A program made the position numbers and the translations under genes. A DNA stretch of 64,000 nt from NCBI GenBank assembly GCA_947488905.1, contig CANLBJ010000001.1, positions 434,001-498,000 on the forward strand. The letters are read 5' to 3'. Each line of letters begins with the position of its first letter. Positions within the stretch are counted from its first letter, which is position 1. The stretch comes from Ulvibacter algarum (GTDB taxonomy: Bacteria > Bacteroidota > Bacteroidia > Flavobacteriales > Flavobacteriaceae). Shown here one piece after another: positions 15,922 to 28,764 of this stretch. The notes beneath the pieces were generated by a model that ran no database searches, had not been told where the DNA came from, and saw nothing but the letters and a program-made list of their open reading frames with translations.

Positions 15922-16662
15922 CTAAATAGTATTTAATCTTTGAAGTAATTTTTCTTTATGAGGCTTACTTATAGGTATTGCTTTTTTTGAAATGACAACA
16001 TGTGTCGTGCCCAATTCATTTATTTGAGAAAGATTTACAATAAACGATCTATGAATTCTCATAAAGTGTTTACTGGGTAGTTTCTGCTCAATATCTTTTA
16101 ATGTAATCACTAACACATATTCTTTTGCTTGTGTAAATATTCGGCAATAGTTTCTTTCGGCTTCAATATATAGGATCTCTTTTATGGCAACCTTTACCAT
16201 ATTATTATTGTGCCTTACAAAAATACAATCATCAAGCACATAAGGAATAGTAGCTGTTTCTGAAGTAGTGTCGTCTAATTTTGCTGCAGTTTTTTGGCTA
16301 ATTACTAACTCTATCGCGCGTTGTAAATCTAATTTTTTAAAAGGTTTTGCAATAAATGCAAAAGGGCGTGTTTCTTTAGCTCTGTTGAAATTTTTTTCAT
16401 CGTTATTTGCCGTTAAATAAATGACAGGGACATCACAAAATTGCTGCATTTGCCGTACCGTTTCAACGCCGTCTATTGTGCCTTTTAGGTTAATATCCAT
16501 TAATACAATATCTGGTGTGTTTTCTTTTAAGAGCACTAAAGCCTCTTCTCCTCTTGGAACAAGCCCCATAACGTCATAGCCTAAGCTGTTAAGGATTAAA
16601 GAGATATTTGCCGCAATAATCATCTCGTCTTCTACAATAAGTATATTAATTTTATTGTCCAT
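15922..16662 (-). CDS. LytTR-family response regulator
   Basis: 246-residue two-component response regulator. The receiver domain has Glu11/Asp12 (IVEDEM), phosphoacceptor Asp56 (LMDINLKG) and the conserved Lys in FIAKPF (around 108). Residues ~145-246 are a LytTR DNA-binding domain (ILYIEAERNYCRIFT, FMRIHRSFIVNLSQI). It overlaps the stop codon of the upstream TPR histidine kinase by one base, so kinase and regulator are one operon and almost certainly partners. LytTR domains typically bind paired direct repeats; the targets are not visible here. Confidence 0.92.
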   Translation of the reverse strand: MDNKINILIVEDEMIIAANISLILNSLGYDVMGLVPRGEEALVLLKENTPDIVLMDINLKGTIDGVETVRQMQQFCDVPVIYLTANNDEKNFNRAKETRPFAFIAKPFKKLDLQRAIELVISQKTAAKLDDTTSETATIPYVLDDCIFVRHNNNMVKVAIKEILYIEAERNYCRIFTQAKEYVLVITLKDIEQKLPSKHFMRIHRSFIVNLSQINELGTTHVVISKKAIPISKPHKEKLLQRLNTI

Positions 16663-18608
16663 TATGCCGCGGTACCAAGTTTAAAATAAAAGGTATACGA
16701 AGTGCCTAAATCATGAGACTCTTCCATATTCCCATTGAGTTGTTGTGTTAATAATTGAATGAGTTGAGTACCAAAACCTGTCCCATTTGACGCAACGTCT
16801 TTTTCTTTTCCCACACCATTATCAGTAAATATAAGTGATAATGTGCCATTATCTGTTTTTGACAAATCAATTTTTATGACCCCATTTTCATTATTAGGAA
16901 ACGCATACTTTAATGCATTAGTCAATAACTCATTTACTATTAACCCAATGGGTACTGCCGTATCTACATCAAGATTAAGGTTTGTCATTGCACATTCAAT
17001 TTTCACTTTTTCTTCTTTACCAAAAGAGTCTAAAACACCTTCTCCAAGATTTAAAAAATAATCTTTCATTTCAATAGAACCCAAATTATCTCCTTGATAT
17101 AATTTTTGATGGATAATCCCCATAGACTGCACACGATTCTGGCTTGCAATCATCGCATCTTTTGCGGCAGAATCTTGCAATTGAGCAGATTGTAGTGAGA
17201 TGAGCCCTTTTACCATCTCAAGATTGTTTTTAACACGGTGGTGAATTTCTCTAAGTAGTAATTCGTTCTCAGCATTTTTCTGAAATATGATACTAGATGC
17301 TTTTTTGTTCTTTCTGAAAAAATACAGCAGTAAAAAGAGTAATACAAGAAGCAGACCTGCCACGCCAATTATTAAATACTGCACTCTGTTTTTTTGTGTT
17401 AAAAGTATTTCTTGTGCTGCAATCGCTTCGTCCTTTTTTTCTGTTTCATATTTTACAATCATTTCAGATTGTAACTGTTCTATTTTTGCTTGTGATAATT
17501 CAGTTTCGTAGCCAAAGGCTTTATCCCTAAATTCAATTGCTTTAGGGTAGTCACCTAACTTTTCATAACACTGAGAAAGGGTTAAATATAACTCTGAAGC
17601 TCGATCTATTTTAGAATGTTCTTTACCCTTAATACCAGCAATTAAATGCGGTAATGCTTCTTTATAATTCTCTTGTAAAAAAAACATCTTCCCTATGTTA
17701 TACCTAAAAAAATCTCCATTCTCTTTACCACCTAACGCAATATTATCTTCCCAAGCTTTTTCATAAAAAACTAATGCCTTATCCACCATTTTTTGGTCTG
17801 CATAAATATCACCTTTTGTTTCATAGCTAGCTACAAGTAAATTTTCATTTTGTTCAAAATCTCTAGTAGAAGAAAGCTCAATACTTTGGTCAACAAACTC
17901 CATAGCTTTTGTGTAATCCTTTAACGTTTTATAGGCTTCACTAGTATACCACAAGGCTGATGCGGCAGACAAGTATTCTTCATTTTTTAATAACACAGGA
18001 TAGCTTAAAGTGGCATATTCAATTACTTTTACTGGCTCTTTTGTAGATAAATATAAAGCGGCAATTTGTACTTGAGACTCTGCTAACCAAAGCTCATTAT
18101 TAGTTTCTTCAAAATAATAAATAGCTTTTAAAACCGCTTCTTCAGATTTTTTTGATTCATTATTGTTGAGGTAATCCATCGCTAGCCCTAAATAGCTTTC
18201 ATTTGCGGCATCCAGATTTCCGTCTTTTAAATAAAACGCTACTGTTTTTTCTGCATGAAAAATGATAGAATCTGAGGGGTACTTGGTATTATTTAGATAA
18301 TGCCAATGTGATATATAATTATGTATTCGTCCTGCACTATAATAGTCTTTTTGCTTCTTGGCTCGCTTTAGTAAATGTTTTGAAGTTGTTTCAAAATTAG
18401 GGTCTCCATCTAACACACTTTGTCTAAGAGAATCTACGGCAGTCTCAAGACTAACGGCGCTTAGATCAGAATAGGGTATTTTAAAATTTGAAGAATTTTG
18501 CGCGATACTATTAAAATTTCCGAAGAAAAAAATAAGCAGTACCATCAAGCAAGTCTTACTCCCTGAGAGTTTCAAATATGTTTCTAATGCAAGAATAATA
18601 GTACGCAT
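16662..18608 (-). CDS. TPR sensor histidine kinase (HisKA_2 type)
   Basis: 648 residues: N-terminal signal or anchor (about 15-37), TPR-like helical repeats (about 60-390), a membrane segment (411-431) and a HisKA_2 domain with REIHHRVKNN (phosphoacceptor His456), then an HATPase (LIVNELLTNALKYAFP and DNGVGKEKD). The TPRs should lie in the periplasm and the kinase in the cytoplasm. Its partner is the LytTR regulator immediately downstream (TAATG overlap). This architecture is common in Flavobacteriaceae; the stimulus is unknown. The start ATG at 18608 gives a good signal sequence. Confidence 0.92.
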   Translation of the reverse strand: MRTIILALETYLKLSGSKTCLMVLLIFFFGNFNSIAQNSSNFKIPYSDLSAVSLETAVDSLRQSVLDGDPNFETTSKHLLKRAKKQKDYYSAGRIHNYISHWHYLNNTKYPSDSIIFHAEKTVAFYLKDGNLDAANESYLGLAMDYLNNNESKKSEEAVLKAIYYFEETNNELWLAESQVQIAALYLSTKEPVKVIEYATLSYPVLLKNEEYLSAASALWYTSEAYKTLKDYTKAMEFVDQSIELSSTRDFEQNENLLVASYETKGDIYADQKMVDKALVFYEKAWEDNIALGGKENGDFFRYNIGKMFFLQENYKEALPHLIAGIKGKEHSKIDRASELYLTLSQCYEKLGDYPKAIEFRDKAFGYETELSQAKIEQLQSEMIVKYETEKKDEAIAAQEILLTQKNRVQYLIIGVAGLLLVLLFLLLYFFRKNKKASSIIFQKNAENELLLREIHHRVKNNLEMVKGLISLQSAQLQDSAAKDAMIASQNRVQSMGIIHQKLYQGDNLGSIEMKDYFLNLGEGVLDSFGKEEKVKIECAMTNLNLDVDTAVPIGLIVNELLTNALKYAFPNNENGVIKIDLSKTDNGTLSLIFTDNGVGKEKDVASNGTGFGTQLIQLLTQQLNGNMEESHDLGTSYTFYFKLGTAA

Positions 18609-22552: not shown

Positions 22553-23152
22553 TTAGTAATGTACTTCTGCAGATATGTGGACAACTCCTACAGAATTTTC
22601 AGAATCTGAAGGCATAATTTCATATTCACCTGCTCTTAAGAGTATTTCATTTGGCAAACCATAAATTGGATTTTCAAATTTTAAATACCCATCTTCCTCA
22701 AGGGTGAATACACCATTGTTTTCATCGTACATTTCATCATCAGAGTATTCTAATATTTCCATAATAACAGTATCATCTAGTACGTCAAAACGAACTAATG
22801 ATGTATATTGTTCGTTACTGATATCTATATCAATATCACCACCACCTGTATCTGGGTTTGATATGTAATATATTACCGCCCCAGTTCTTGGTTTTCTTGT
22901 TTTAACACACAAAGTATTAAGATTATATTCACAACCATCTCTCGTTCCAACATTTACAGATTTCAAATTCTTAAAGGTTGCGGTAATACAGCAAGGTAAC
23001 CTTTGTTGTGCTGTATCTACATTTTGGCTATCAAGACTTAACTTTCCTTCTAAGGACGCATTGATATTTTTATTTGTTGTTTCTTCTTTTTGACAAGAAA
23101 AAAAGAATGTCATACATAATGTTAATATTGTAATTGCTTTTAAATTTTTCAT
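22553..23152 (-). CDS. Uncharacterised lipoprotein near the CHAT/S8 locus
   Basis: 199 residues with a signal and lipobox (MTFFFSCQKEE, lipidated Cys near residue 20). I do not recognise a domain. The mature part is acidic with several cysteines (LPCCITATFKN, DGCEYNLNTLCVK) and ends in short beta-type strands (EILLRAGEYEIM, VGVVHISAEVHY), suggesting a small beta-sandwich. It lies 214 bases downstream of the CHAT gene on the same strand and may belong to the same locus, but the gap is long enough for a separate promoter. Confidence 0.6.
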   Translation of the reverse strand: MKNLKAITILTLCMTFFFSCQKEETTNKNINASLEGKLSLDSQNVDTAQQRLPCCITATFKNLKSVNVGTRDGCEYNLNTLCVKTRKPRTGAVIYYISNPDTGGGDIDIDISNEQYTSLVRFDVLDDTVIMEILEYSDDEMYDENNGVFTLEEDGYLKFENPIYGLPNEILLRAGEYEIMPSDSENSVGVVHISAEVHY

Positions 23153-23366
23153 AATAAATAATGTTGGTTTTCCCTACTCTGTTAAATGGGCTTTTCAGGT
23201 TACGCCTTTAGTATTATTTTTTCACAACCCCTTATTTAGGGCTGTTTAATAATAAGTAGTAGATTTATTAATCTATTACCCACTATTTTTTAAAAAAATG
23301 GATTTAAAATATTATTTCACCTTTAGAGTGCTGATTATCAGCAATAAAAACTAAGTGTGTTGTTGG

Positions 23367-25910
23367 CTACCTTTTAGAAGAATAGATAGTATATAAAAAG
23401 TAAAAGAGAATAATAAGTGCCGGTATTAAAAAGAAAAGCCATCTGTTTGTAGATGGACTATTATTAATACTGTCTGTATTGCCAGTGAGAGTCATGGAGG
23501 CCCAGTAATAAGGTGAAATTTCTGATAATTGATGCGTATTGAGATAGGCTATTTTAGATTTATGAAGAGCTGTAGATTTTGAAGTTCCTTTATGGAGTTC
23601 TTTATAAAATGTTTCAAATATTTTACTGTTAGTGTTTTCATTTGCATTCCATTGTGAAGCTATTACACTTTTTGCGCCACTGTATGTAAATCCTCTTGAC
23701 AAACTCATGACACCTTCTCCAATGGCTATTTTTCCTACTCCAGTTTTACACGCATCGAGTACTACGAGATCTACTAAAAACGGATGGTTATAAATCTCAT
23801 TTAGATTCATTTTTTGGTCATAAAATGCCAGCCAAGATTCTTTTGTTAGGGTGTCAATGCCTGCATGGGTATTAATGTGGATGATGGCATAGTCGTTCAT
23901 ATTTGCTAAAATAGCAGACTTAGTTGCCTCTTCTTTTTCAAGTATAGTAGTAGGGAATAACGAGGCTATTTTTTTAATGTCAAGTGCGCTGTTTTCTAAA
24001 CGAGTTAGAGAATCCATTTTAAAATTTTCTGGGGCAATACCTAAAACAGATTGTGTAGATTTTCTTTTTCTTTTTTGAAGTTGTGTAAAAACAGATGCCG
24101 AATATAAGTATGAAATTTCTGCGTGTTGTATTAAAAAACTGCTGCTTAGATTTTCTGTTTTATTATTTATTTGTAATGCTTCAAAAGCAATGTTTTTAAT
24201 TTTATAATCTGAGATTACAGTCAGTTTTTTATCTGAGATTTCTTGAAGTGCATTTTTAAATGGAAATAATTTTTGAAAAATTTCATTGGCATTTTCAACA
24301 TAAATACGATCATCCCCTTTATTCGTAAAAGGCACGCTGCACATTTTTTTATACTTCTCAACCTTATTTAATAACAGCGGGACATTGTCTATTTTAAAAA
24401 ATGAAACATCATTATCACTATAAAAAATGCCATACCCTTCTTCATCATTTATTATGTATTCTATAAAATTTGAAGAACTTGAAACAAGCTGTTTTTTAGT
24501 GCTATTTAAAGATGCAATTGGGAGTTCATTATCCTCTGTATAATTGAGGTTTTCTAAAACTAACAACGCTTTATTTTTTTCCATAAAATAAAAAGCAGTT
24601 TCTATGTCTCCCAATAAATAACATGCTTTAACGCCTAGCATATAACTATCGACACCTTTACTAATCCAGAATAATTTTGACTTGTCAAGACTGCTTTCAA
24701 AACGGATATATGAGATTATTTTATCTATTAAAAAAAGTGTTTTCTTTGCTCTCAATAAGTTTGAGGTTTCGCCATTTTTTTCAAAAGCAAGCACCCATGT
24801 ATTTGCTATTTGTATTAAGTCTTCTATAATTTCTTTAGAATTGTTAGACTCTTTAATTAATGTTTCAGAAGGTAAATCATCTAAGGTCGTGTTATTGTAT
24901 TTTTTGTTTAAAAGATGTCTCATGGAAGCCTGATAATATGGAATCTTATCTGTTGGCTGAGTAGTCTCTAAATAAAACCCTCTATTGTGAGCGACGTCTG
25001 CTAAAACGTTTTTGTTTTTTGTTGTTGAGAGGGCTTTGTTAAAATAGAATGTTGCTTTTTGAGTGTTTTTTAGTTTAGAATATATCTGTCCTAAATTGCT
25101 ATAAATTGCACCAGTTGTTTCAGATTCTTCAGTTTCTAAATAATAATCAAGGGCTTTTTTATAGTAGACAACAGCTTCTATATTAAGGCCAATGTCTTCA
25201 TAGATATTCGCTAAATTGTTATTGTTTTTAGCGATATCTTCCTCTAGAATATAGTCGGCGTAGATTTCTATCTGTTGATTATGATATTGAATTTTATTTA
25301 ATTGACTGGGTTCAATTTTTAATCTTGAATACACCTCTATGCATCCTAAATGAGCTTCGGAAAGTTGATCTGTATTATTATGTGTTAAGTAATTTGAGAT
25401 TACAAAATTATAATAGTGTAAGGCTTTAAAAAAATCTCCTCTTTCAGTATAAATTTTAGCAGCTTTATTGTGCGCTCTAATAGTATAAATATCTAAAGCT
25501 TTACATTCAATTATTTGCTCTAAAGCAGTTAATTGTTCTTTGTTATCTGCTCCAGATTTTTCTAAATAATAATAGAGATTATTTAAGCTTTTATTGACTT
25601 GAAAAGTATCTTTTGCTTTTCTCTTTAATGCTATTGCCTTATAAGTTATTGCTATTGCTTTTTTGTACTGCTCATTTGCATAGTACATCTTTCCAATTTC
25701 GTGATACGCAAGACCTAATTCTTTTGAAAAAGCGATCGTGTCATATTGCTGTAATTTTTTTTCAGCTTCGGCTAGCGTAGTGTGGTCTATAACTTTTAGG
25801 TTAGCTATAGAGTCCATGTAGTTTGTTACATTTTTGCTGTTGTATTCTTGAGAAAAGCATAGGTTAGTTATTAGAAAACTAAGTGTAACTTTTATCAAAC
25901 ATCTTAACAT
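23367..25910 (-). CDS. TPR-CHAT domain peptidase, membrane-anchored
   Basis: 847 residues. ATG at 25910 gives a signal peptide (MLRCLIKVTLSFLITNLCFS); an upstream in-frame TTG is less likely. TPR-like repeats fill about 40-330. The C-terminal CHAT (caspase HetF-associated) domain shows the His-Cys dyad of clan CD peptidases: His682 in IIHINTHAG and Cys721 in VVLDACKTGVG, followed by GEGVMSLSRGFTYSGAKSV and SPYYWASMTLTG. A membrane segment (about residues 820-841) followed by SSKR ends the protein. The peptidase should thus face the periplasm, held by its C-terminal anchor. The gene follows the subtilisin-like gene by 69 bases in the same direction, so they are probably co-expressed. CHAT peptidases cleave partner proteins in signalling or self-killing; the substrate here is unknown. 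Confidence 0.88.
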   Translation of the reverse strand: MLRCLIKVTLSFLITNLCFSQEYNSKNVTNYMDSIANLKVIDHTTLAEAEKKLQQYDTIAFSKELGLAYHEIGKMYYANEQYKKAIAITYKAIALKRKAKDTFQVNKSLNNLYYYLEKSGADNKEQLTALEQIIECKALDIYTIRAHNKAAKIYTERGDFFKALHYYNFVISNYLTHNNTDQLSEAHLGCIEVYSRLKIEPSQLNKIQYHNQQIEIYADYILEEDIAKNNNNLANIYEDIGLNIEAVVYYKKALDYYLETEESETTGAIYSNLGQIYSKLKNTQKATFYFNKALSTTKNKNVLADVAHNRGFYLETTQPTDKIPYYQASMRHLLNKKYNNTTLDDLPSETLIKESNNSKEIIEDLIQIANTWVLAFEKNGETSNLLRAKKTLFLIDKIISYIRFESSLDKSKLFWISKGVDSYMLGVKACYLLGDIETAFYFMEKNKALLVLENLNYTEDNELPIASLNSTKKQLVSSSSNFIEYIINDEEGYGIFYSDNDVSFFKIDNVPLLLNKVEKYKKMCSVPFTNKGDDRIYVENANEIFQKLFPFKNALQEISDKKLTVISDYKIKNIAFEALQINNKTENLSSSFLIQHAEISYLYSASVFTQLQKRKRKSTQSVLGIAPENFKMDSLTRLENSALDIKKIASLFPTTILEKEEATKSAILANMNDYAIIHINTHAGIDTLTKESWLAFYDQKMNLNEIYNHPFLVDLVVLDACKTGVGKIAIGEGVMSLSRGFTYSGAKSVIASQWNANENTNSKIFETFYKELHKGTSKSTALHKSKIAYLNTHQLSEISPYYWASMTLTGNTDSINNSPSTNRWLFFLIPALIILFYFLYTIYSSKR

Positions 25911-25979
25911 TATTTGTTGTTTTAATATCTTCAATCAATAATAGAGTGAAGGTATTATTTTATTCAAATATCTTACTTG

Positions 25980-27254
25980 TTATTCAATTATTTTACCATA
26001 TTTAACTTTTTGAGCATCCTCACCGTCTATATGGGTGCCAATGGCATCTAATTCTTGAATTATTCTGGTTGGCTGAAAAGTTATCCCCGAGTTAAAAAGT
26101 ATTTTTGCACTTACTGCTGTTACGTAAGGTGCTGCAAATGAGGTCCCAGATAAATAAACGGTAGTAGCATTAAAATCTACAAACTCTACACGATCACCAA
26201 TGGCATAAAAATCTACAGATTCAATTCCGTAATTTGAAAAACTTGCTTTTCTATCTCCAGCAGCGGTTGCAGCTGCAATTGATAAAACGTTATCATTAGT
26301 ACAAGATGAAGGGTAATGAAAATTATCATCAGTATCTACGGCACTATTTCCTGCGGAAGTAACAAATAAAACGTGACTGTTTATATCAATCAGATCTTCC
26401 ATAATGGTGCTTCTTTCATCACGAGTGTTTGTGTAATATCCAGCACTTATATTAACAATATGCGCTAGTTCTGCAGCATTTTTCAATCCACATATTAAAT
26501 TAAATGCTGAAATTTTACCTGTATTATCTGCAATTTTTATAGGGAGTATTTGATGAGGAACTCCTTCATTATTCAATTTTTCATGAAGGATATAAGAGAC
26601 TTTTGTCCCGTGTATTTTGTTATAATCGTCTTGAGTATTATCATCTTCATTTACATAATCCCAACCAGAAATTTGATTTAGAGATCCGGGGCCATTATTT
26701 CCGTATGGAAAACCATAAGCATTGTATAAAAAATCTGGCAAAAACCCGGGATAGGAAACATTTACGCCAGTATCAAGTACCGCAATAGTAACGCCATGAT
26801 TGCCACCTATATAGTTTTGGTAATCACCCTGTGTTGTATTTCCAGAAATAGAATCTGTCTCTACCTCTCTTTTAAATGAGAATTCGGTATCAATGTTTTT
26901 AATCTCTTCAACACCGCCTTCTCCAGTTGAAGTTAGCGTTCTTTTTCTAGCTTCTATATCTATGCCGTCATCAAACATCCATTTTTCTATAGATTGATCA
27001 GAGCAGTTGCAGGTTTCAAATATATCTATGCTGTTAGCTGCACGTATGGCATCTTTTTCGGTAGGTGAGATTCCGTCTTTATATTGAACAATTAATTCAT
27101 TAGTAGAGAAAACAGGAATGTTAAGTGGCGGTTCATTGTCTTGCCCAATTTCTATCTCTAGATTTTCTTGTGCGGTTGTATCAAAATCTATTTTGTCATC
27201 TTTCGAGCACGAAATAATAAAGAAGAACAATATGTATATATTTAAATTTTTCAT
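25980..27254 (-). CDS. Subtilisin-like (S8) serine protease lipoprotein
   Basis: 424 residues with lipobox FIISCSKDD (lipidated Cys16). The triad is Asp161 (VLDTGVN), His215 (KIHGTKVSY) and Ser372 (SGTSFAAPYV), with oxyanion Asn303 (SAGNS); all are intact. Residues ~50-130 (NELIVQYKDGISPTEKD and on) look like an I9-type inhibitory prodomain, so activation by prodomain removal is likely. It contains a Cys pair in CNCSDQS. The gene is divergent from the ECF sigma gene across 140 bases and precedes the CHAT gene. It is an envelope-bound protease, presumably periplasmic. Confidence 0.9.
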   Translation of the reverse strand: MKNLNIYILFFFIISCSKDDKIDFDTTAQENLEIEIGQDNEPPLNIPVFSTNELIVQYKDGISPTEKDAIRAANSIDIFETCNCSDQSIEKWMFDDGIDIEARKRTLTSTGEGGVEEIKNIDTEFSFKREVETDSISGNTTQGDYQNYIGGNHGVTIAVLDTGVNVSYPGFLPDFLYNAYGFPYGNNGPGSLNQISGWDYVNEDDNTQDDYNKIHGTKVSYILHEKLNNEGVPHQILPIKIADNTGKISAFNLICGLKNAAELAHIVNISAGYYTNTRDERSTIMEDLIDINSHVLFVTSAGNSAVDTDDNFHYPSSCTNDNVLSIAAATAAGDRKASFSNYGIESVDFYAIGDRVEFVDFNATTVYLSGTSFAAPYVTAVSAKILFNSGITFQPTRIIQELDAIGTHIDGEDAQKVKYGKIIE

Positions 27255-27394
27255 AGACTGTTTTTAATTGTTTAATTTGCCATTCTATATTCAAGTAAAT
27301 TTAGACAAAATATCTAAACCCTTCATGACACTAGTGTGTGCATTCTAAAAAGCATTACCCAAAAATTAATATTTTTTTCGTTTTTATTTAATCT
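27255..27394. promoter_or_regulatory. Divergent control region between protease and sigma factor genes
   Basis: 140 bases separate the start codons. A perfect 10-base palindrome, ACACTAGTGT, lies at 27328-27337 near the middle. No consensus TAnnTTTG box is clear for either side, which would fit ECF-dependent promoters. The regulatory role is inference. Confidence 0.4.
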
Positions 27395-27949
27395 ATGTCA
27401 CAAAGCAAAACATATTTAAATGCTCTTATTGAAGGTGACAACAAGATTATTTCAGAAATCTACCGCAAATTTTATCCTAAAGTTGCATCCTACATTAGAA
27501 CCAATAGAGGTAGTGAAGAAGAAATACAAGATGTGTTTCAAGATGCATTGATGTATTTGATTGTCACACACAGAAAAAAACCCATAGATATTGTTTCTTT
27601 TGAAGCCTATTTCTTTACTATTTGTAAGAACAAATGGAAAACTTTAATAAAAAACAAAAATAAACGGATAACAAATCAAGACATTTTACCACTACTAGAT
27701 AAAGACACAGAATTAAGTGTGTTTATTTTAGAACAACAACGTTTAGAATTATATCAGGAAATGTTTCAGAAACTCTCTGATAACTGCAAAGAAGTATTGA
27801 GCAGTTATTTTAACGGGATGAGTTATCAAGACATATTAGATGAGCTGTCATACAGTTCTGTAAACACCATAAGACAAAGGGTGTTTAAGTGTAAAGCTAA
27901 GTTGATTAAACTCATAAAAAAAGATAGTAGGTTTTCTGCTTTTAAATAA
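27395..27949 (+). CDS. ECF-type RNA polymerase sigma factor
   Basis: 184 residues with sigma region 2 (about 15-85; EEEIQDVFQDALMYLIV matches the core-binding helix) and region 4 (about 125-175; LSDNCKEVLSSYFNGMSYQD as the helix-turn-helix lead). There is no region 1 or 3, so it is an extracytoplasmic function sigma factor. Its stop codon overlaps the start of the following membrane protein by one base (TAATG). Its position divergent from an envelope protease and CHAT peptidase suggests it controls them or is controlled by them. Confidence 0.9.
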   Translation: MSQSKTYLNALIEGDNKIISEIYRKFYPKVASYIRTNRGSEEEIQDVFQDALMYLIVTHRKKPIDIVSFEAYFFTICKNKWKTLIKNKNKRITNQDILPLLDKDTELSVFILEQQRLELYQEMFQKLSDNCKEVLSSYFNGMSYQDILDELSYSSVNTIRQRVFKCKAKLIKLIKKDSRFSAFK

Positions 27950-28764
27950 TGAAACTAATGGATGAAAATGTGCAAATAGAAATAGAACGTTATCTGCGTG
28001 ACGAATTAAATAGGGAAGAAAAACAGCTTTTTATTAAAAAAATAGAAGCAGATCCTTTGTTAAAAGAAGAGGTAGATTTACAACAATCACTTTTTAATGT
28101 CCTTGGAAATAAGGGCAATGGTGTAGAGAACTTAAATAATAATACCGATGAGGTTAAAAAAATAAGAACGCTACTTAAAAGTGAAGAGTATAAAAAGATT
28201 GCAGCAAATATTAATGAGAATACTATTTCATATTTAAAAGCAGAAAAAAAGCAATCTCGTAAAAAAGTGATGTTTCGTTCTGCATTAGCAATGGCCGCAG
28301 TACTGGTCTTATTTTTTGCATTGACTCCTTTATTAAAAAATGACAATGCACAACTATATAATGATTATGCGCAATGGGACAACATCCCTTCATTTGTTGA
28401 AAAAGGCACAACCGAAATGACACTGGTTGACGTTGAAAAAAAATACAAATTGCAAGAGTATCGTGAGGTTATTGAGATCACAAATGCGATTCCAGAAAAC
28501 ATAAAAGTTAGTAACCCTAATCTATTTATTTACTTAGGAGCATCCTATTTTCAGAACAATGAATATGAAAAAGCATTAGAAACGTTTAGCGTTTTTGCAA
28601 ATTCAAGTGCTTATGATAGTTCTAAAGGGCATTGGTATATGACGCTAGTGTATCTAAAGCAAGACCGCCTAGAAGACGCTAAAAACGAACTGAAAATAAT
28701 TACATCTAGTGCTAATAATTATAATTATGATAAAGCTTTAGAGTTATCAAAAAAGCTTGAGTAA
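27949..28764 (+). CDS. Anti-sigma-like membrane protein with periplasmic TPRs
   Basis: 271 residues. The N-terminus (IERYLRDELNREEKQLFIKK, then EADPLLKEEVDLQQSL) resembles the cytoplasmic part of Bacteroidota anti-sigma proteins. The positively charged KKQSRKK precedes a single membrane segment (109-129), so residues 130-271 lie in the periplasm; these are TPR-like (YLGASYFQNNEYEKALETFS, WYMTLVYLKQDRLEDAKNEL). Translationally coupled to the sigma gene. Inference: it holds the ECF factor at the membrane and senses a periplasmic event through its TPRs. A start at the ATG at 27958 is also possible. Confidence 0.75.
   Translation: MKLMDENVQIEIERYLRDELNREEKQLFIKKIEADPLLKEEVDLQQSLFNVLGNKGNGVENLNNNTDEVKKIRTLLKSEEYKKIAANINENTISYLKAEKKQSRKKVMFRSALAMAAVLVLFFALTPLLKNDNAQLYNDYAQWDNIPSFVEKGTTEMTLVDVEKKYKLQEYREVIEITNAIPENIKVSNPNLFIYLGASYFQNNEYEKALETFSVFANSSAYDSSKGHWYMTLVYLKQDRLEDAKNELKIITSSANNYNYDKALELSKKLE

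Follow-up and report, generated by a model that had tools for sequence, protein, structure and literature searches.

The window, a 64,000-nucleotide stretch of Ulvibacter algarum DNA, contains five open reading frames between positions 22553 and 28764 (Table 1). The original prediction grouped four of the encoded proteins, a subtilisin-like lipoprotein, a TPR-CHAT peptidase, an ECF sigma factor and an anti-sigma-like TPR membrane protein, into one signalling unit; all four reading frames are present where they had been placed, and their catalytic residues are intact. The genes for the S8 lipoprotein and the TPR-CHAT protein are 45 bp apart on the minus strand. The fifth product, a 199-aa lipoprotein whose gene also falls within the range first described, was considered as a further component; because relatives of it are missing from all other module loci and its gene has an upstream element of its own, an Rfam DUF805b cis-regulatory RNA at 23171–23208 (minus strand) between the CHAT gene and the lipoprotein gene, it probably lies outside the module. 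Elsewhere in the window a TPR-containing histidine-kinase-like protein and a LytTR-like response regulator (16662–18608 and 15922–16662, minus strand) are encoded, which are unrelated to the module.

Table 1. Positions of genes, domains and sequence elements of the locus, numbered from the first letter of the window.
Feature	Position	Strand	Basis or remark
ECF sigma factor, 184 aa, regions 2 and 4	27395..27949	+	PF04542, TIGR02937
Anti-sigma-like single-pass membrane protein	27949..28764	+	cytoplasmic helical domain ~aa 4-101, TM 111-129, extracytoplasmic TPRs ~aa 151-271 (predicted)
TPR-CHAT protein	23367..25934	-	signal peptide, TPR superhelix, CHAT peptidase domain, C-terminal TM anchor (predicted); PF12770
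CHAT domain, aa 549-819	23478..24290	-	PF12770
His690 codon, predicted catalytic (855-aa frame)	23865..23867	-	alignment invariance
Cys729 codon, predicted catalytic (855-aa frame)	23748..23750	-	alignment invariance
C-terminal TM helix of the CHAT protein	23385..23441	-	hydropathy; same in almost all relatives
S8 subtilase lipoprotein with prodomain	25980..27254	-	PF00082, triad; optional fourth member
GGGTAAT, degenerate GGGTAACA copy directed at the S8-CHAT operon	27354..27360	-	
199-aa lipoprotein	22553..23152	-	within the range of the original prediction

The ECF sigma factor matches TIGR02937 with 61.8 bits against a cut-off of 42.9, and its Pfam region 2 scores above the cut-off and region 4 below; it is one of 13 ECF-like sigma matches in the genome. 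The start of the following, anti-sigma gene, for which coupling had been proposed, overlaps the sigma stop (TAATG). The anti-sigma-like protein, the only full-length TPR anti-sigma of this kind in the genome, is predicted to cross the membrane once with its N-terminus inside and its TPRs in the periplasm, and its AF2 model (pLDDT 86) consists of a four- to five-helix N-terminal domain and C-terminal TPRs. No Pfam anti-sigma model matches the N-terminal domain in 57 members, and a structure search with the AF2 model returned TPR matches only and thus bears on the TPR part of the protein. We infer the anti-sigma role of this protein from gene position, helical architecture and topology.

The TPR-CHAT protein, encoded by a single-copy gene, matches PF12770 with E=1.5e-46 and 159.6 bits against a gathering cut-off of 24, and is a predicted peptidase with an intact dyad. 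The His682 and Cys721 named originally, counted from an internal ATG, are His690 and Cys729 of the 855-aa frame that starts with TTG, and both are invariant in a 38-sequence alignment of related CHAT proteins; the likely start is the ATG at 25910. Sequence prediction gives an N-terminal signal peptide, with a Gln near the cleavage site that is common to the whole CHAT family, and a C-terminal transmembrane helix at residues 832–850. This helix, which had been recognized as a membrane anchor, is kept in almost all relatives, and a hydrophobic segment with a basic tail ends 16 of an initial set of 17 relatives. The signal peptide and the helix with its basic tail together imply that the body of the protein lies in the periplasm and is held by an inner-membrane anchor.

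The S8 lipoprotein matches PF00082 (E=1.2e-26, 94 bits) and has the expected triad (D161/H215/S372), an oxyanion residue N303 and a lipobox Cys16; the prodomain that had been considered likely is conserved in eight related S8 lipoproteins. From the lipidated Cys16 the protein reads CSKDDK (aa 16–21), which fits C-X-K-(D/E)2-X, the optimal surface lipoprotein export signal of Capnocytophaga, also a member of the Flavobacteriaceae (PMC5080379). Because of this fit the S8 protein is probably exposed on the cell surface, with the CHAT protein in the inner membrane. The original placement of both peptidases in one compartment is therefore doubtful and not supported: the CHAT protein and the anti-sigma TPRs are probably both periplasmic, but the S8 protein is probably outside. 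The export signal is not specific to the module, being found in 27 of 34 lipoproteins encoded upstream of CHAT and in 52 of 87 other lipoproteins.

Conservation of the gene neighborhood was assessed in several sets of genomes. In 59 relatives searched with the CHAT protein of the window, inspection of the neighborhoods revealed that the sigma/TPR pair adjoins nearly every full-length CHAT homologue. A wider set of 80 named loci was gathered from 84,980 species genomes; in this Bacteroidota set the pair lies within 7 kb at 65 of the 75 assessable CHAT loci, in divergent (35), convergent (19) or co-directional (11) orientation. Since the alignment used for gathering was made of linked members, two less biased tests of linkage were added. 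The first was a search of the same 59 genomes with a TPR anti-sigma profile and a CHAT-domain profile; both genes were found in 13, TPR alone in 2, CHAT alone in 0 and neither in 44 (Fisher p=2.6e-11); as for the two genomes with TPR alone, the gene lies at a contig end in one, and the other genome is 80% complete. All 17 canonical (strong) TPR-CHAT genes of these relatives occur in genomes with a TPR anti-sigma, 16 of them beside a sigma/TPR pair. In the reverse test, covering 118 genomes across the phylum with the gene of the window excluded, 16 of 23 TPR anti-sigma genes have CHAT nearby. The remaining third or so (L210, L218, L221, L223, L224, L228 and L230) have none in the vicinity, and this class of anti-sigma therefore also serves other partners. 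Pairwise distances of CHAT, sigma and TPR proteins correlate (Mantel r 0.52–0.71, 0 of 2000 permutations), and in genomes with several modules the partners stay separate. The conserved core thus consists of three genes, sigma, TPR anti-sigma and TPR-CHAT, and for these three the proposal of one functional unit is upheld by conserved linkage, the absence of which in relatives had been named as grounds for refuting it; the S8 gene, included in that proposal as a fourth, is present at only about 10 module loci. A literature search for CHAT proteins with ECF or anti-sigma factors in Bacteroidetes or Bacteroidota, covering mainly open-access papers, found nothing.

The module is widespread but patchy in Bacteroidota: its relatives are mostly named Flavobacteriaceae, it occurs in 12 of the 118 sampled genomes, and within the genus 3 of 10 genomes carry CHAT. 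Such patchiness, and the parallel with Craspase, would suit a role in conflict or anti-phage defense, with CHAT triggered when infection damages the envelope. The predicted periplasmic topology argues against this, as does the surrounding DNA, where no defense genes were noted, and PADLOC returned generic TPR and subtilase matches only and nothing specific, on which ground the defense reading was set aside as very improbable. No array-like repeats are found in the window between 18 and 34 kb, which also counts against the defense reading and led to the rejection of a CRISPR association.

The position before CHAT is occupied in different ways at different loci. An S8 gene precedes CHAT in the window and at L031, L032, L048, L049, L052, L053, L215 and L222, in the same position as in the window at L048, L049, L052, L215 and L222, and the gene order at L222 is exactly that of the window. 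At L055 and L058 an S8 gene precedes CHAT with no sigma in reach, and larger S8 proteins are encoded at L081 and L100. Among the 59 relatives the prodomain and the catalytic domain are both matched by only two S8 proteins, both module-borne. The S8 lipoprotein is thus a recurrent but optional fourth part, and the four-gene unit was rejected as the conserved system because S8 occurs in a minority of loci only. At the other loci the slot before CHAT holds a different lipoprotein or a PKD/DUF7849 protein, or is empty. Small stand-alone lipoproteins resembling the S8 prodomain take the place of S8 at L033 (6235–6600), L050 (6521–6922), L054, L056, L057, L059 and L060; they share the pattern V.V.Y...R...C..(I/L)E.W and have no protease domain. 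The resemblance of several of them to the prodomain is suggestive: an HMM search gave no significant match, and a profile–profile comparison, using nine sequences picked by eye, gave a score of 28.5, where 200 column shuffles reached at most 16.9. A second subtype of the module is represented by L040 (4119–6065 and 8612–9058), L064, L069, L072, L073, L076 and L108; in it a PKD/DUF7849 protein and lipoproteins of ~345 aa precede CHAT. At L040 a retropepsin-like aspartyl protease (PF13650) directly follows CHAT, and genes of similar size stand there in other loci. Near several modules (L034, L037 and L041) there are genes for large secreted proteins in which starts such as NYINYQGVAR or GINYKALIKD recur; the proteins may be surface fibers co-regulated with the module.

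The AF2 model of the CHAT protein (pLDDT 88) was compared with known structures using VIA-align. It superposes on Csx29 with Z 31 (566 aligned residues) and on DdvA with Z 24.1 (623 aligned, model residues 40–818), the latter being matched also by Foldseek (1.9e-14). Both proteins superpose over TPR and CHAT together and rank above other TPR proteins; separase matches too, as expected for a caspase-like fold. The sequence search of the PDB used the CHAT domain alone, as profiles of the full CHAT protein and of the anti-sigma are swamped by TPR proteins, and its only significant sequences are those of Csx29 (3e-5) and of DdvA (1.2e-5), which retains the His and Cys motifs. The ECF factor DdvS has as its cognate anti-sigma DdvA, which responds to a signal that is not known (PMC4374960), and Csx29 cleaves Csx30, the inhibitor of the ECF-like CASP-sigma (PMC10028731). 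The statement that CHAT peptidases are known mostly from cytoplasmic conflict systems is therefore incomplete, DdvA of Myxococcus being a transmembrane anti-sigma with an extracytoplasmic TPR-CHAT region.

That DdvA is a fused version of what the module splits is the strongest reason to think that the TPR anti-sigma and the TPR-CHAT protein work together. The same comparison lends itself to a second reading. The CHAT region of DdvA is part of the anti-sigma polypeptide and can thus be the sensory part, and by analogy the CHAT protein of the module could signal by conformation without cutting; TPR-CHAT and anti-sigma would then form a receptor complex from which a change of conformation, or the action of other proteases, sets sigma free, the peptidase processing only itself. 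The invariance of the His-Cys dyad in 38 sequences and the cleavage by Csx29 of its sigma regulator (PMC10028731) weigh against such a non-cleaving sensor, which we regard as possible but doubtful.

The intergenic region between sigma and the CHAT operon contains a conserved promoter-like element. GGTAAC, read from sigma toward the operon within 250 bp, occurs at 23 of the 35 divergent loci against an expectation of 1.25, and at 2 in the opposite orientation; GAAC or TGAT(ATAA) follows after ~15–16 bases. The strict form occurs 14 times in 12 genomes and 0 times in the reversed control, and most of these sites are at the module, the rest preceding a lipoprotein gene or unrelated genes. In four Aquimarina genomes a stricter promoter pattern recovered the known site and no other, and the phylum sample contains six further loci with the element. 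The copy in the window is degenerate. ECF promoters typically combine an AAC-containing -35 with a 16-base spacer, so that sigma probably drives the S8-CHAT operon; the same is suggested by this GGGTAACA-type element lying where it does, between the sigma gene and the operon of CHAT. It is conceivable that the peptidases are output only, sigma-driven envelope proteases that handle damaged or foreign surface proteins while the anti-sigma is signalled in some other way. An element that faces an operon of proteases and lipoproteins, and whose exact form is nearly absent elsewhere in 12 genomes, is what this would predict. The near one-to-one co-occurrence of CHAT and TPR anti-sigma, the DdvA fusion, and gene orders in which CHAT adjoins the TPR gene or converges on it point instead to a role of CHAT in signalling and make an exclusive output function unlikely, although output and feedback roles of CHAT are compatible.

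The observed linkage, co-occurrence, topology signals, intact active sites, fold relation and promoter-like element are best accommodated by an envelope-to-transcription module, a split DdvA-like system in which a TPR-CHAT sensor acts on the anti-sigma, most likely by cleavage; we consider this reading probable. Three proteins would form its core: the ECF sigma factor, an anti-sigma that crosses the membrane once and exposes its TPRs to the periplasm, and a TPR-CHAT peptidase, anchored in the inner membrane on the periplasmic side, that senses a periplasmic signal and meets the anti-sigma through the periplasmic TPR regions of both proteins. In the order of events that we infer, the signal would lead the CHAT domain to cut the anti-sigma in a DegS-like site-1 step, a later intramembrane cut would be made by the single M50 site-2 protease (the genome encodes one), and the sigma factor, bound until then by the anti-sigma, would be freed and transcribe the lipoprotein-CHAT operon. 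The S8 lipoprotein would be an optional member of this operon and probably a surface-exposed partner.

Several known systems resemble parts of this arrangement. DegS-RseA-sigma-E follows the same logic, a membrane anti-sigma factor being cut at site 1 in the periplasm, although DegS is a PDZ serine protease and the periplasmic domain of the anti-sigma in that system is without TPRs. In the EACC2-caspase neighborhoods (Kaur et al. 2021, PMC8195603) the gene for a caspase-superfamily protein likewise stands with genes for an ECF sigma and a TPR protein; these neighborhoods differ in the EACC2 constant domain and the DUF1822 TPR family, and were proposed from neighborhoods only. Craspase of type III-E CRISPR (Csx29-Csx30-CASP-sigma) also ties a TPR-CHAT fold to an ECF sigma via a third protein, but is cytoplasmic and RNA-activated through Cas7-11, whereas the module has a signal peptide and membrane anchors, and neither a Cas7-11 effector nor a Csx30 homologue is found among its ORFs. 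As a tentative suggestion, the Craspase arm (TPR-CHAT protease, Csx30 and CASP-sigma) might derive from such an envelope module or share an ancestor with it; TPR-CHAT proteins would then generally be switch proteases that cleave anti-sigmas, CRISPR would have coupled them to RNA sensing at a later stage, and a signal would enter from the outer membrane through the lipoprotein partner, be it S8 or the prodomain-like form. The module is in this sense a candidate source of the type III-E protease-sigma arm, and offers a tractable membrane-based system for asking if CHAT peptidases are general sigma-release proteases; with a conserved promoter-like element and, in a genome, several modules insulated from one another, it lends itself to a direct test of the idea by reporters.

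The closest parallel is DdvA-DdvS of Myxococcus xanthus (PDB 8rot, 8rw5), which has an ECF sigma partner, a single-pass anti-sigma and a membrane-side TPR-CHAT region with His/Cys motifs, on which the whole TPR-CHAT model superposes. As in the DdvA type, the cognate ECF sigma stands beside the anti-sigma, with overlapping stop and start, and the pair is conserved. DdvA is, however, one polypeptide, whereas in the module the TPR-CHAT protein has a membrane anchor of its own and is separate from the anti-sigma-TPR protein, and lipoproteins join as operon partners; an anti-sigma domain and TPR-CHAT in a single chain were not encountered, two genes being present here and in the relatives examined. 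Both sequence relatives in the PDB, DdvA and Csx29, are tied to ECF sigma regulation, and the module extends this link across Bacteroidota. On our best reading, the locus belongs with the DdvA-type TPR-CHAT/ECF sigma systems, as a split form of them.
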